Notes under the pieces: model-generated
Database searches by the model: none
Seen by the model: only the letters and a program-made list of their open reading frames with translations
What the model was told of the DNA's origin: nothing
Shown here: positions 8,226-26,432 of the stretch, in pieces
Position numbering within the stretch: the stretch's first letter is position 1
How the letters are laid out: every line of letters starts with the position of its first letter
Position numbers and translations under genes: made by a program
DNA from: Cyanobacteria bacterium J069
GTDB taxonomy: Bacteria > Cyanobacteriota > Cyanobacteriia > Elainellales > Elainellaceae
DNA: 34,184 nt
Assembly (NCBI GenBank): GCA_003695655.1
Contig: RFIF01000614.1
Location: forward strand, 1-34,184
Direction of reading: 5' to 3'

Positions 8226-9245
8226 TTAAACGGCAGCCTTTTCTGACGGCTTCACTTCATCTTTGAGGGGATTGCCCTGCTCAAAATCGCTGATGCTGGC
8301 GATCGTCGTCGTGGTGATATCGTTCAGCGCTTCGCGGGTGAAAAACGCCTGATGTGCTGTTATAACCACGTTTGGAAAAGACTGCAAAAGCTGAAATGTA
8401 TCGTCTTGGATCACTGTATCCGACAGGTCGCGGAAAAATAAATTCGCCTCTTCTTCGTAAACATCAATACCCAGATAGCCGATTTTGCCAGATTTGATGC
8501 CGTGGATGGCCGCTTTGGTGTCGATCAGCTTTCCCCGGCTGGTGTTGATCAGCATTACGCCATTTTTCATCTGCTCAACGGTAGTGGCATTAATCAAATG
8601 ATCATTTTCTGGGGTCAGCGGACAGTGCAGCGAGATAATATCCGACTGGGACAGCAACTCTGGCAGGTCTACATACCGAGCACCGTCTAAGGCTTCAAAC
8701 TTAGGACTTGGGTAAGGGTCATAGCCCAGCAGACGACAGCCAAAGCCCTGCATAATTTGGGCAAAGATGATCCCAATTTTGCCCGTGCCCACCACGCCCA
8801 CGGTCTTGCCATGCAGGTCAAAGCCCAGTAGACCATTGAGAGAAAAATTGTCGTCTCGCACCCGACTGTAGGCTCGATAGAGCTTACGGTTGAGCATTTG
8901 AATCAGCCCAACCGCGTGTTCGGCGACGGAATAGGGCGAGTAGACAACCACTCGCACGATTTTGATGCCCAGTGCGTCTGCGGCTGCTAGGTCAACATTG
9001 TTATATCCGGTGCAGCGGAGTGCAATTAGTCGAGTTCCCTGGGATGCCAAGACATCGAGGGTTTCAGCGTTTACCTCATCGTTCACAAACACGCAGACAG
9101 CAGGAAAGCCAGCCGCCAGCACCGCGGTTTTGAGTTCCAGGCGGACATCAAAATAAACCAGTTCGTGGGGCGCTCCTGCCGCCGCGTTGGCAGCCGTTAA
9201 AAATTGACGATCGTAAGGCTCGGTACTAAAAACAGCGACCTTCAT
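8226..9245 (-). CDS. D-2-hydroxyacid dehydrogenase (D-lactate dehydrogenase-like)
   Basis: GKTVGVVGTGKIGIIFAQIMQGFGCRLLGYDPYP NAD motif; LINTSRGKLIDTKA; FPNVVITAHQAFFT. Confidence 0.93.
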   Translation of the reverse strand: MKVAVFSTEPYDRQFLTAANAAAGAPHELVYFDVRLELKTAVLAAGFPAVCVFVNDEVNAETLDVLASQGTRLIALRCTGYNNVDLAAADALGIKIVRVVVYSPYSVAEHAVGLIQMLNRKLYRAYSRVRDDNFSLNGLLGFDLHGKTVGVVGTGKIGIIFAQIMQGFGCRLLGYDPYPSPKFEALDGARYVDLPELLSQSDIISLHCPLTPENDHLINATTVEQMKNGVMLINTSRGKLIDTKAAIHGIKSGKIGYLGIDVYEEEANLFFRDLSDTVIQDDTFQLLQSFPNVVITAHQAFFTREALNDITTTTIASISDFEQGNPLKDEVKPSEKAAV

Positions 9246-9312
9246 GCGGGTGCTCCTCGAGATGAAGTGTCTTTCGACGCCAGAATAGGCATGAGGTGTA
9301 CGATGCGTATTC

Positions 9313-9444
9313 TGGGTGATCCATTGGGCGATCTTATGGGCGATCCATTGGGAAACCCACTGGGTAATTCATTGGGAAACCCGCTGGGTGATCTACTGGG
9401 AAATCCACTGGGTGATTCATTGGGAAACCCACTGGGCGATCGCT
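9313..9444 (+). repeat. 12 bp minisatellite, 11 units, TGGGNRAYYYRY-like (GDPL/GNPL tetrapeptide if translated)
   Basis: TGGGTGATCCAT TGGGCGATCTTA TGGGCGATCCAT TGGGAAACCCAC TGGGTAATTCAT TGGGAAACCCGC TGGGTGATCTAC TGGGAAATCCAC TGGGTGATTCAT TGGGAAACCCAC TGGGCGATCGCT. Confidence 0.95.
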
Positions 9445-9628
9445 CAACCGACTCTTTAGGCGTTGACTCGCTGCCTAAAGTTTGCAGCCTAATAATATCT
9501 GCAAAACAGGGAACTCAACGCTATTCTGCGATACATTGGCAGCTAGACGGGTGGTCGCCAGACAAGCAGCCAGATCAGTTGAGCTGCTTGAGGCTCGCCG
9601 TTTTGACCGAGGCACCGTAGGGAAATCT

Positions 9629-11578
9629 ATGAAAACATCGCAAACTGCTCCTTTTGGCTCCTGGAAGTCACCAATTAGCTCAGACCTGATTGTGGCAGGC
9701 AGCATTCGACTGGGTGAGGTGCGGCTAGATGGAGAAGCGATCTACTGGAGTGAAGGACGACCGACGGAGGGCGGGCGCAGCGTGGTTGTGCGGCGATCGC
9801 CCAGCGGTTCAACCACCGATCTAACGCCTATGCCGTTCAACGTTCGCACTCGCGTGCATGAATATGGCGGCGGTGCATACATCGTCCAAGACGGCATTGT
9901 GTATTTTTCAAACTTTGCTGACCAGCGATTGTATCAGCAGCGCCAGGAGCAAGCGCCTCAACCACTGACGCCAGCCGGTGAATTTCGCTATGCCGATGCC
10001 GTGTTTGATCCGGTGCGAAATCGACTGATCTGCGTGCGCGAAGATCATTCTGCGGATGATCATGAACCCGTGAATGCTATCGTCTCGATTGACCTCTCAT
10101 CTGCGGGCGAAGCGCTGGACGCAGGAACAGTGCTGGTGTCGGGGCGAGACTTCTACGCCTATCCCCGACTCAGTCCCGACGGCTCTCGGCTGTGTTGGAT
10201 TGATTGGAATCATCCCAACATGCCGTGGGACGGAACAACGCTGTGGGTGACAACGGTCAACGCAGACGGCAGCCTGGGCGAACCGCAAAACCTCATCGGC
10301 AGTGAGGCGGAGTCGATCTTTCAGCCGGAGTGGTCGCCCGATGGTGAACTGTACTTTGTAAGCGATCGCACGAATTGGTGGAACCTCTACCGCTGGAACT
10401 TTGACACGGCCACGCCAGAGCCGCTGTGCCCTAAAGCGTCAGAATTTGGCTTGCCGCTGTGGGTGTTTGGCATGACTACTTACGGCTTTGAGTCGGCAGA
10501 CTCGCTAATTTGCACCTACAGCGAAGGTGGTGTTTCAAAACTGGCGCGGCTGCACCCCCGCACGCTAGTCCTCACCGAAATTCCAACCCCTTACACCAGC
10601 ATTGGTGGGATTCAGGTTTCCGGTTCTGCGGTGGTGTTTGGGGCCGGTTCGCCCACGACGCCAGGGGCGATCGCCCATCTCGATCTATCCACTGGGCAAA
10701 TCACCGAACTGCGCCGCTCCAGCACGCTAGCGATCGACGCGGGCTACATTTCTGTACCCCAGGCCATCGAGTTCCCCACCACAAACGGACTCACCGCCCA
10801 CGGCTTTTTCTATCCACCGCAAAATCAGGACTTTACTGCGCCCGCAGGCGAAAAACCGCCCCTGCTGGTGAAAATTCACGGCGGCCCCACCGCCGCCACC
10901 AGTGCCACCTTTAGCCCCAGCATTCAATATTGGACGAGTCGGGGCATCGCCATTTTGGACGTGAACTATGGCGGCAGCACGGGCTACGGGCGCGACTATC
11001 GCGAACGGCTAAAGGGCAACTGGGGCATCGTGGACGTGGATGACTGCGTGAATGGGGCGAAGTATCTGGCAGAACAAGGGCTGGTGGATGGCGATCGCCT
11101 CTGCATCGACGGCGGCAGCGCGGGCGGCTACACCACACTGGCGGCGCTGGCCTTCCGCGATCTGTTCAAAGCTGGGGCTAGCCACTACGGCGTCAGCGAT
11201 TTAGAAGCTCTAGCCAAAGACACCCACAAGTTTGAATCGCGCTATCTCGACGGGCTAATTGGCCCCTATCCGGCACGGCGCGATCTGTATATCGAGCGAT
11301 CGCCCATCCATGCCATCGATCGGCTCAACTGCCCACTAATTTTCTTCCAGGGCGACGAAGACAAAATCGTGCCGCCCAACCAGGCAGAGATGATGGTTAA
11401 TGCGCTTCAGGAAAAAGGCTTGCCTGTGGCCTACGTCTTGTTTAAAGGAGAGCAGCACGGCTTCCGCAAAGCCGAGAATATCAAACGAGCGCTAGATGGC
11501 GAACTCTATTTCTATGCGCGGGTGTTTGGTTTTCCGCTGGCGGAGCAGATGGAAAGTGTGGCGATCGCCAATTTATAG
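9629..11578 (+). CDS. S9-family peptidase (prolyl oligopeptidase / dipeptidyl aminopeptidase type)
   Basis: Beta-propeller N-terminus, [54 protein letters not shown] nucleophile, [19 protein letters not shown]. Confidence 0.93.
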
Positions 11579-12792: not shown

Positions 12793-12948
12793 GTCTGTTT
12801 GAAAGAATTCGCAAATGCTGAAAGAGCGATCCATAAAAACCTACAAAAACTAAAACAGGGCTGACAAGACTTTTGCTTACTTTCACTGGTTGATCGGTCT
12901 GCATCGTGGGTTTATTTAAGTCCATCCAATCCAGTTGATTAATCAGTT

Positions 12949-13041
12949 GGTGACTTACGGATTTGACGCATGAAATGCTGAAAGCGGGTTGAATTTGCGC
13001 AAGTGTTTCCTGTGCAAATTCAACCAACTGCGTAAGTTCTA
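12949..13041 (-). mobile_element. Decayed third copy of the palindromic MITE-like element, opposite orientation
   Basis: gacttacg...caactgcgtaagttct ends; internal hairpin GGTTGAATTTGCgCA/TGtGCAAATTCAACC next to the right end; flanks CAGTT/AAGTT (4/5). Confidence 0.55.
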
Positions 13042-13100
13042 AAGTTCCTTAAGTAGAGGATTGCAGCCCTCTCACGCAGTCTACGAACCTGAGAGGCGAA

Positions 13101-16185: not shown

Positions 16186-16313
16186 CCCAAGCTCTTGAAG
16201 GTTGCAACATTTTGGGTAGCTCTGCGGTAAGCGGGGTTACCCAGTTTTATTGGGGGGCGAAAGCGGGGCGGCCGGTGGTGATTTTGCTCTTTCAAAAGCA
16301 CTGCTATATTAAT

Positions 16314-16405
16314 TAGGACTTACGCAGTTGGATGATTTTTCGCGGGCGCAGCCCGCGAAAAATCATCCAGAATCTACAGAACTCGTTTCAACTGCGTAAG
16401 TCCTG
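16314..16405 (+). mobile_element. Palindromic MITE-like element, copy 1 (92 bp), TSD TTAAT
   Basis: 16 bp perfect TIR aggacttacgcagttg/caactgcgtaagtcct; internal perfect 18 bp-stem hairpin with loop GCA; TTAAT at 16309-16313 and 16406-16410. Confidence 0.88.
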
Positions 16406-16561
16406 TTAATGTTGCAACAGCGCTTTGCAATGCCGTTATCTATCGCTGTTGGGCAATGAGCCATTGCCGTTAATTGCTTGACGGTTGCGGCGATCGCCCT
16501 TCTAAATCCGCCCCATAGCCCTTAATGCCCCCTCCTGGCTCTTGGAAGCGTCAGGTTTACT

Positions 16562-18009: not shown

Positions 18010-18969
18010 ATGATCGCCAGTCCTCCCCGTACCATTCGCATCGGTTCCCGCAAAAGTCAGCTTGCCCTGGTGCAGACCCACTGGGTGCAGTCCGAGCTAC
18101 AAAAGGCCTTCCCCGATCGCACCTTTGAAGTGCACACTATGAGCACTCAGGGCGACAAGATTCTGGACGTGGCGCTGGCCAAAATTGGCGACAAGGGCTT
18201 GTTTACCAAAGAGCTAGAAGTGGGGATGCTCAGCGGCGACATTGACTTTGCCGTGCATTCGCTCAAAGACTTGCCGACAAACCTGCCGGAGGGGCTGATG
18301 CTGGGCTGCGTGACCGAGCGCGAAGACCCTGCCGATGCGCTGGTGGTGCATGAAAATCACAAAGACAAGCAGCTAGCCACGCTGCCCAAAGGCGCAGTGA
18401 TTGGCACTTCATCGCTGCGACGACTGGCGCAACTGCGACACCACTATCCCCACCTGGCGTTCAAAGACGTGCGGGGCAACCTGAACACGCGGCTGGCAAA
18501 GCTAGACGCCGGCGAATATGACGCGCTGATCCTGGCAGTGGCCGGGCTAAAGCGGCTGGGCATGGGCGATCGCATTCATCAAAATATTCCCAGTGATGTG
18601 TCGCTGCACGCGGTGGGGCAGGGCGCTTTGGGCATCGAATGCCGCACCGAAGACCCCGATATTCTCAGCGTGCTGAAGGTGCTGGAGCATACGCCTACGG
18701 CCCAGCGCTGCCATGCCGAACGTGCCTTCTTGCGGGAACTCGAAGGAGGCTGTCAGGTGCCCATCGGCGTTAACACCGTGATCGAGGGCGACACACTGAC
18801 GCTCACCGGACTAGTGGCAAGCCTAGATGGGCAAACTCTGATCAAAGACACTGTTTCGGGTGCTACAGACACGGCCGAACAGCTTGGGGTTGAGCTGGCC
18901 CACCGCCTCAAAGACCAGGGCGCACAGGCCGTGCTAGACGAAATCTTCGCCACGATTCAGCGGGGTTAG
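18010..18969 (+). CDS. hemC: Hydroxymethylbilane synthase (porphobilinogen deaminase)
   Basis: [56 protein letters not shown]; start M at 18010 preferred. Confidence 0.97.
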
Positions 18970-19076
18970 GGATTAAGGGTTAGGGGTTAGGGGTTGTCAG
19001 GCTCGAAACCCTAAACCCCGATTTCTGAAACCTCATCCCTAAACCCTGATCCCCAATCCTTAATCCCTACTCCTCT
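18964..19076. repeat. G/C-rich heptamer-type repeats (GGGTTAG / CCCTAAN), both orientations
   Basis: ggggttagggattaagggttaggggttaggggtt ... aaaccctaaaccccgatttctgaaacctcatccctaaaccctgatccccaatccttaatcccta. Confidence 0.8.
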
Positions 19077-19865: not shown

Positions 19866-19911
19866 GTAAAGTTGCCTAACTCCTAACCCCTAACCCCTGA
19901 CCCCTAACTCT
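19866..19911. repeat. CCCCTAA heptamer-type repeat tract
   Basis: cctaactcctaacccctaacccctgacccctaact. Confidence 0.8.
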
Positions 19912-25382: not shown

Positions 25383-25417
25383 TAGCAGGGGTCAGGGGTT
25401 AGGAGTCAGAGGTTAGG
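25383..25417. repeat. G-rich heptamer-type repeat tract adjacent to the IS1 remnant
   Basis: tagcaggggtcaggggttaggagtcagaggttagg. Confidence 0.6.
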
Positions 25418-26184
25418 TCTGAAGCCCAAGCTGCATCAAGCTTTTCAGTTTGATGCTTGTCCTAGCCATTCTGTCTACCGCTATAACTGTGAAGGGGCCC
25501 AAATTTTCAGCACGATAAATCCATCGCAAACAAGCGTGGGTTCCAGAGAGAAACCCATCGCTGAACCAGTACCAAATCGCCCAAGCGACGACGTGAAAAT
25601 CGGGATCAAGATAAATTCACGCCGCTCACTCAAGCTTGCTTCAGGCAAAGCTTGAGACGATTGAACTCAGCGGGCGATCGCAGACAAACGTCTGTAATAG
25701 GTTATTGCGTATCTCGCTTGATGAAGGGGTGCGCTCTAGGGAATGTGTCTTGTTTTGCACAGACACTTCCGGCTTCTGTTTAGCCTCGAAGTCAATCCTG
25801 AATCATAAAACCTGAGACAGCGCCAACCAAACCTGCGCCTTTCTATCTAAAACACCCAGCAATCTAAAACACCCAACGACTTTGCACCCTGCGGCCGGTC
25901 GGACGAACCTAATCCCACAACAGCCGCACTTAATCCTGAACCTACACGGCCCTTAAAAGACTTGCCTGCCCCATTTGCAGACAACCCTAACTAAACCGCA
26001 ATCCTAGAATCCCATCTTTGGGCAAAAAAAAACATAGCAGTTTGGAAACTTAAGGGATACAGTCTGGATACCGCCGAAAGACGCGATGCCACCTAGTACG
26101 AATGCATTTCAGGATGATTATAGAGCAACGCAAGAATTGTAAAGGATTTGGTTCAGCCCACTGCTCTTTTTAGATTCACACTTG

Positions 26185-26277
26185 TAGGACTTACGCGGTT
26201 GGATGATTTTTCGCGGGCTGCGCCCGCGAAAAATCATCCTGAATCTATGAAAACTCGTTTCAACTGCGTAAGTCCTG
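26185..26277 (+). mobile_element. Palindromic MITE-like element, copy 2 (93 bp), TSD ACTTG
   Basis: TIRs aggacttacgcggttg / caactgcgtaagtcct; internal perfect 18 bp-stem hairpin with loop TGC; ACTTG at 26180-26184 and 26278-26282. Confidence 0.88.
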
Positions 26278-26432
26278 ACTTGTTTAGATTCACATTTGCG
26301 CTGCCTGCCCCTGATTCATCGAAACAGCGATCGCAGCAAAGAGTTAGGACAGTTAGAACATTTAGGACAGTTAGTGATGCTTTGGAGGTTCAGTCCGGCG
26401 CAGTCAAAGATAGAGCCAAGCGCTTTTACTGC

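Follow-up and report, generated by a model that had tools for sequence, protein, structure and literature searches.

The window analysed here, a 34,184 nt stretch of Cyanobacteria bacterium J069, contains two short sequences of about 92 bp, each folding into a strong hairpin, each lying between 5 bp direct repeats of its own, and neither containing a gene. The question raised by this locus is how such sequences arrived at their sites, which enzyme moved them, and by what process their hairpin has been shaped. The answer, held here with high confidence, is that they belong to a non-autonomous MITE family of Thermoleptolyngbya that was mobilised in trans by an IS701-type transposase and whose hairpin was reshaped by template switching. 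It is a genuine, recently active and recently expanded MITE family of an already known element type; the kind of element is ordinary, and its copies document a known DNA-copying error with unusual clarity.

A sequence-only reading of the window had described two palindromic copies of about 92 bp with the ends TAGGACTTACGC[A/G]GTTG...CAACTGCGTAAGTCCTG, a perfect 18 bp stem and perfect 5 bp TSDs. The positions, lengths, ends and duplications stand as described (Table 1), and both copies are intact; a third, decayed copy on the opposite strand had been missed. The stem length is right for copy 2, while the stem of copy 1 is one pair longer and is also perfect. Rather than a single palindrome, the element is a series made up of a TIR, a hairpin adjoining this left TIR, an unpaired spacer of about 20 nt and a second TIR, and the hairpins of copies 1 and 2 are each closed by a loop of 3 nt. 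In single-strand folding, copy 1 reached -38.3 kcal/mol and copy 2 -37.2 kcal/mol, while shuffled sequences averaged near -10 (z = -12 to -13) and every shuffle folded worse. The stem type of copy 3 resembles that of an element of Phormidium tenue FACHB-886 (G018, locus L086), and its 13-mers are rare, with a few occurrences in each genome. Designs of TIR, hairpin and spacer with other stem sequences were found in this genome (L086) and in G016 (L082).

Table 1. Features of the three MITE copies in the window
Feature	Position	Strand	Remark
TSD of copy 1, left	16309..16313	.	TTAAT; single TTAAT at the empty congener site
MITE copy 1	16314..16405	+	92 bp; same sequence as 7 further genomic copies
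Left TIR of copy 1	16314..16330	+	TAGGACTTACGCAGTTG; matches the TIR of IS701_2-type IS elements
Hairpin of copy 1	16329..16369	.	Perfect 19 bp stem, loop GCA (16348-16350)
Spacer of copy 1	16370..16388	.	Unpaired, from hairpin to right TIR
Right TIR of copy 1	16389..16405	-	CAACTGCGTAAGTCCTG
TSD of copy 1, right	16406..16410	.	TTAAT
TSD of copy 2, left	26180..26184	.	ACTTG
MITE copy 2	26185..26277	+	93 bp
Hairpin of copy 2	26201..26239	.	Perfect 18 bp stem, loop TGC (26219-26221), the reverse of the copy 1 orientation
TSD of copy 2, right	26278..26282	.	ACTTG
MITE copy 3	12949..13041	-	Decayed, related subfamily; hairpin GGTTGAATTTGC...GCAAATTCAACC
Near-TSD of copy 3	12944-12948 / 13042-13046		CAGTT / AAGTT

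The J069 genome is a draft (4.61 Mb, 626 contigs, 85.8% complete), in which the 11-mer AGGACTTACGC from the TIR has 117 + 125 exact occurrences (242), against 6 + 3 (9) for the reversed control, which corresponds to about 120 MITE copies; with these counts, and with no shuffle folding as well, a chance palindrome was rejected. The congener G001 is a complete genome of 5,525,100 bp in one contig, taken as Thermoleptolyngbya sichuanensis A183, whose genome was closed with PacBio and Illumina reads (PMC8461337). It contains 78 elements in 1.2 Mb, which extrapolates to 300 or more. Moreover, when 242 genomes of the class were searched for the 17-mer AGGACTTACGCAGTTGG, the two Thermoleptolyngbya genomes gave 109 and 99 exact matches and the other 240 at most 6 each, so that among the 242 the amplification is found only in Thermoleptolyngbya. 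The search for the TIR that the sequence-only reading had proposed returned a very high copy number in both genomes, and the MITE has settled at far more than a hundred sites in this genus of hot-spring cyanobacteria. No match to it was found in the plasmid collection searched, and a text search of the literature for the TIR sequence returned nothing but an unrelated Vibrio paper.

Nearly all copies are 90-93 bp long and without a gene, in keeping with the earlier claim that the element encodes no protein. The TIR measures 16 bp, or 17 when the outermost Y is counted, and all 141 elements scanned have it, the 11 bp core differing at no more than 2 positions. The copies of J069 differ from one another by 6% on average in pairwise comparison, several being identical, and those of the congener by 19%; the J069 copies are young and the congener copies older.

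The process by which the copies spread is recorded at their borders. In J069, 66 complete copies out of about 120 were read, and 54 of them have perfect 5 bp TSDs of 49 different sequences; in the congener, 42 of 75 copies have them. When the flanks were re-paired among copies as a control, the mean number was 1.1 in J069 and 0.7 in the congener (maximum 6 and 5), that is, about one expected by chance. Positions 1 and 5 of the duplication are rich in A/T, which amounts to a weak WNNNW target preference. As for empty sites, few could be compared with the congener. At the L054 locus the congener reads AGAGCAAT-TCTGG-TAGGTTTGG, where TCTGG stands once and the element is missing, and at the site of copy 1 it reads CTGCTATATTAAT, again without the element. 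The site of copy 2 offers no empty site, since a decayed related element lies within the same intergenic region of the congener, and the intergenic spacer around copy 3 could not be aligned to it. After the insertion sites were rejoined, 16 of 75 fell within an ORF of 120 aa or longer, compared with 63% of random positions; the insertions avoid genes, and their sites are coding-poor.

In the mechanism proposed here, the two TIRs of 16-17 bp would serve as the binding and cleavage ends for a DDE transposase of the IS701 type (NCBIfam IS701_2, ISMesi2/ISPna6-like). Supplied in trans, this enzyme would excise or copy the 92 bp segment and insert it where the two target strands are cut 5 bp apart, and repair would leave the 5 bp duplication. 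The TSDs, the empty sites and the full-length IS elements with the same TIR all favour transposition with a 5 bp stagger, as had been claimed from the sequence. Copies without TSDs and loci without empty alleles, which had been named beforehand as outcomes against it, were not the pattern found; the observation is confirmed and the MITE reading supported.

A full-length IS with matching ends, which the sequence-only reading had suggested looking for, exists in other genomes. First of all, Phormidium tenue FACHB-886 carries an IS of 1047 bp whose TIR agrees with that of the MITE at 17 of 17 positions and whose TSD is TTCCA. It encodes a DDE protein of 332 aa that scores 363 bits against NCBIfam NF049921 (IS701_2; cut-off 250) and matches DDE_Tnp_1 and DDE_5 of Pfam. 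TIRs of the form YAGGASTTACGC(AGTTG) are common to IS elements of the IS701_2 type of about 1.05 kb from Phormidium tenue, Chroococcidiopsis, Gloeocapsa, Polaromonas and acidobacterial MAGs, mostly with 5 bp TSDs. Both TIRs are identical to those of the MITE (17/17) in the IS elements L074, L118 and L120, and a 5 bp TSD was found at L074, L119, L103, L105, L107, L108, L114, L275, L277, L278 and L280; at some other IS701_2 elements examined, no 5 bp TSD was found. The IS701_2 relatives with the same TIR core have 27-58% protein identity and come from several phyla, their carriers being cyanobacteria, Polaromonas (ISPna6) and Allomeiothermus (ISMesi2); closer IS701_2 relatives, of 86-88% identity and with the same TIR core, occur in acidobacterial MAGs. 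In genome G009, six contigs (L073, L080, L085, L089, L092 and L095) break off 85-100 bases into an element that has the same TIR and whose coding end, by eye, matches the IS701_2 C-terminus; it is probably an IS present in several copies that the assembly lacks.

From these TIR and protein matches, the donor family can be placed outside the genus, among the IS701_2 (ISMesi2/ISPna6-like) transposases. IS701_2 elements (NF049921; ISMesi2, ISPna6 and the cyanobacterial relatives) share with the MITE the TIR YAGGASTTACGCA(GTTG) and, in most copies, the 5 bp TSD. They differ from it in being IS of about 1.05-1.14 kb with a transposase of about 330-350 aa, whereas the MITE has 92 bp, no gene and an unrelated interior; the ISMesi2 copy examined is flanked by a 7 bp repeat, unlike the 5 bp repeat of the MITE. 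Beyond the TIRs there is no similarity, the MITE interior matching the IS elements no better than shuffles do, and since it is unlike the subterminal parts of the IS tested, direct descent from an IS by internal deletion is not shown.

In Thermoleptolyngbya itself, the IS701_2 transposase gave 0 matches in the J069 draft (85.8% complete) and none in the complete congener, where weak partial matches to another family only were found. The family would therefore be orphaned, or mobilised by an IS that has been lost or left unassembled; the enzyme may have been lost, may be encoded in what the draft lacks, or may have acted from outside. That a complete genome should have an estimated 300 or more decayed copies and lack the cognate transposase suggests that the MITE family has outlived its enzyme. 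A collapsed IS at the TIRs on J069 contig ends was also considered and rejected, all ends long enough to judge leading inward to MITE sequence.

That absence, together with the unrelated interior, would suit a transposase of another family, with the AGGACTTACGC end shared by coincidence or ancestry. Such an enzyme is very unlikely, for it leaves unaccounted both the 17/17 TIR identity and the 5 bp TSD in common with IS701_2 elements, and the congener yields no candidate for it: the PF01609 loci that were read have no MITE TIR pair, the DDE_5 element ends in CTTTAGTTTGGACTAA, which is unrelated to the MITE TIR, and in 1.2 Mb no two long TIRs flanked by matching 5 bp duplications resemble an IS. 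The preferred mobiliser would thus be an IS701_2 transposase that was then lost, or not assembled, in these genomes. The DDE_5 element is an abundant IS in its own right, with 88 matches in the congener (e.g., L312), most of them near-identical, 1.5 kb in length with a transposase of 444 aa; no DDE_5 match was found in the J069 draft.

A REP/REPIN-type or structural intergenic repeat, spread by a Y1 (RAYT) enzyme or retained for a function such as termination, is hardly tenable in the face of the perfect 5 bp TSDs, the IS-type TIRs and the empty sites, even though a strong hairpin and an intergenic location would fit it. REPINs are not known to have TSDs. An intrinsic terminator was rejected as well, the stem having T-runs on its 5' side and A-runs on its 3' side on both strands, the opposite of a terminator, and the Rfam scan of the window gave no family at the gathering threshold.

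The most interesting part of the family is the dynamics of its hairpin, although the mutational mechanism is already known. With all copies read in the canonical orientation, 27 loops of J069 are GCA and 26 are TGC; in the congener 21 are GCA and 32 are TGC. The two are reverse complements of each other and about equally common in the family. Six haplotypes defined by the sequence outside the loop occur more than once, and five of them include both loop states; mutated loops, which are rarer, likewise come in either orientation (ACA/TGT and GTA/TAC). Moreover, the arms change together: matched double changes number 20 in J069 (about 0.4 expected) and 48 in the congener (about 2.2 expected), of 13 distinct kinds in each genome, and these counts are inflated, as they are of copies and not of events and the copies are related. 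Faulty assembly is an unlikely cause, since one read is longer than the 39 bp hairpin and the same pattern is seen in the genome closed with PacBio and Illumina reads (PMC8461337).

Apart from transposition, template switching within the stem at replication would flip the 3 nt loop from GCA to TGC and would also copy mutations from one hairpin arm to the other. A passage of PMC8604942 describes how template switching between inverted repeats homogenises their arms and inverts the spacer. Both of these signatures are seen here, which points to replication template switching in the hairpin. Exchange between copies lying in opposite orientation may also play a part.

Matched arm changes far beyond chance could, on the other hand, be selected compensations, if the hairpin were under selection for folding, either for TIR juxtaposition or as RNA; the designs of TIR, hairpin and spacer built on other stems in G018 (L086) and G016 (L082) lean the same way. 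Selection for folding does not predict loop inversion, yet both orientations occur in otherwise identical copies and in the mutated loops ACA/TGT and GTA/TAC too, which leaves this explanation doubtful, with some weight of its own. A bolder proposal joins the two processes: a hairpin extruding beside one TIR would shorten the path between the ends and aid synapsis, and template switching there, renewing the stem and flipping the loop, would be part of the life cycle, so that the family would keep its structure long after transposase loss. This is a rather improbable idea.

With its many near-identical copies of a perfect hairpin, one genome supplies ready-made replicates in which to measure inversion of the loop and homogenisation of the arms by template switching, which are usually studied at single loci. 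PMC2903610, citing Kelchner and Wendel 1996, discusses minute inversions in chloroplast DNA that are associated with hairpins: the loop enclosed by perfect arms, of 18 bp in trnH-psbA, has flipped many times, homoplasiously and even among members of one species. The recurrent flipping of a loop between perfect arms is the likeness to the MITE; the chloroplast case concerns a single locus in many species, whereas the MITE offers many copies of one repeat in one genome.

Bacterial and cyanobacterial MITEs are short and without ORF, with IS-matching TIRs, TSDs, high copy number and an intergenic bias (PMC10969869). The Thermoleptolyngbya MITE shares these features and differs from other bacterial MITEs in its asymmetrically placed perfect hairpin, its recurrent loop inversion and the absence of the cognate IS from both genomes. 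A thermophilic cyanobacterial genus thereby gains a well-documented MITE family, and the link of this family to one particular transposase subgroup makes the donor testable. The small dispersed repeats of cyanobacteria (those of Elhai et al. 2008) are reportedly very small and mobile as well, and the likeness drawn here is one of description.

The window also contains repeats of other kinds. Copy 2 sits within a 16 bp tandem near-repeat, TTTAGATTCACACTTG / TTTAGATTCACATTTG (26169-26298). Eight overlapping copies of a repeat with a 12 bp period occupy 9312-9460, near the starts of the ORFs 9204-9620 and 9482-11578, and repeats of the TTAGGGGTTAGGGGTT type lie in both orientations at 18965-19069, 19875-19908 and 25386-25417.
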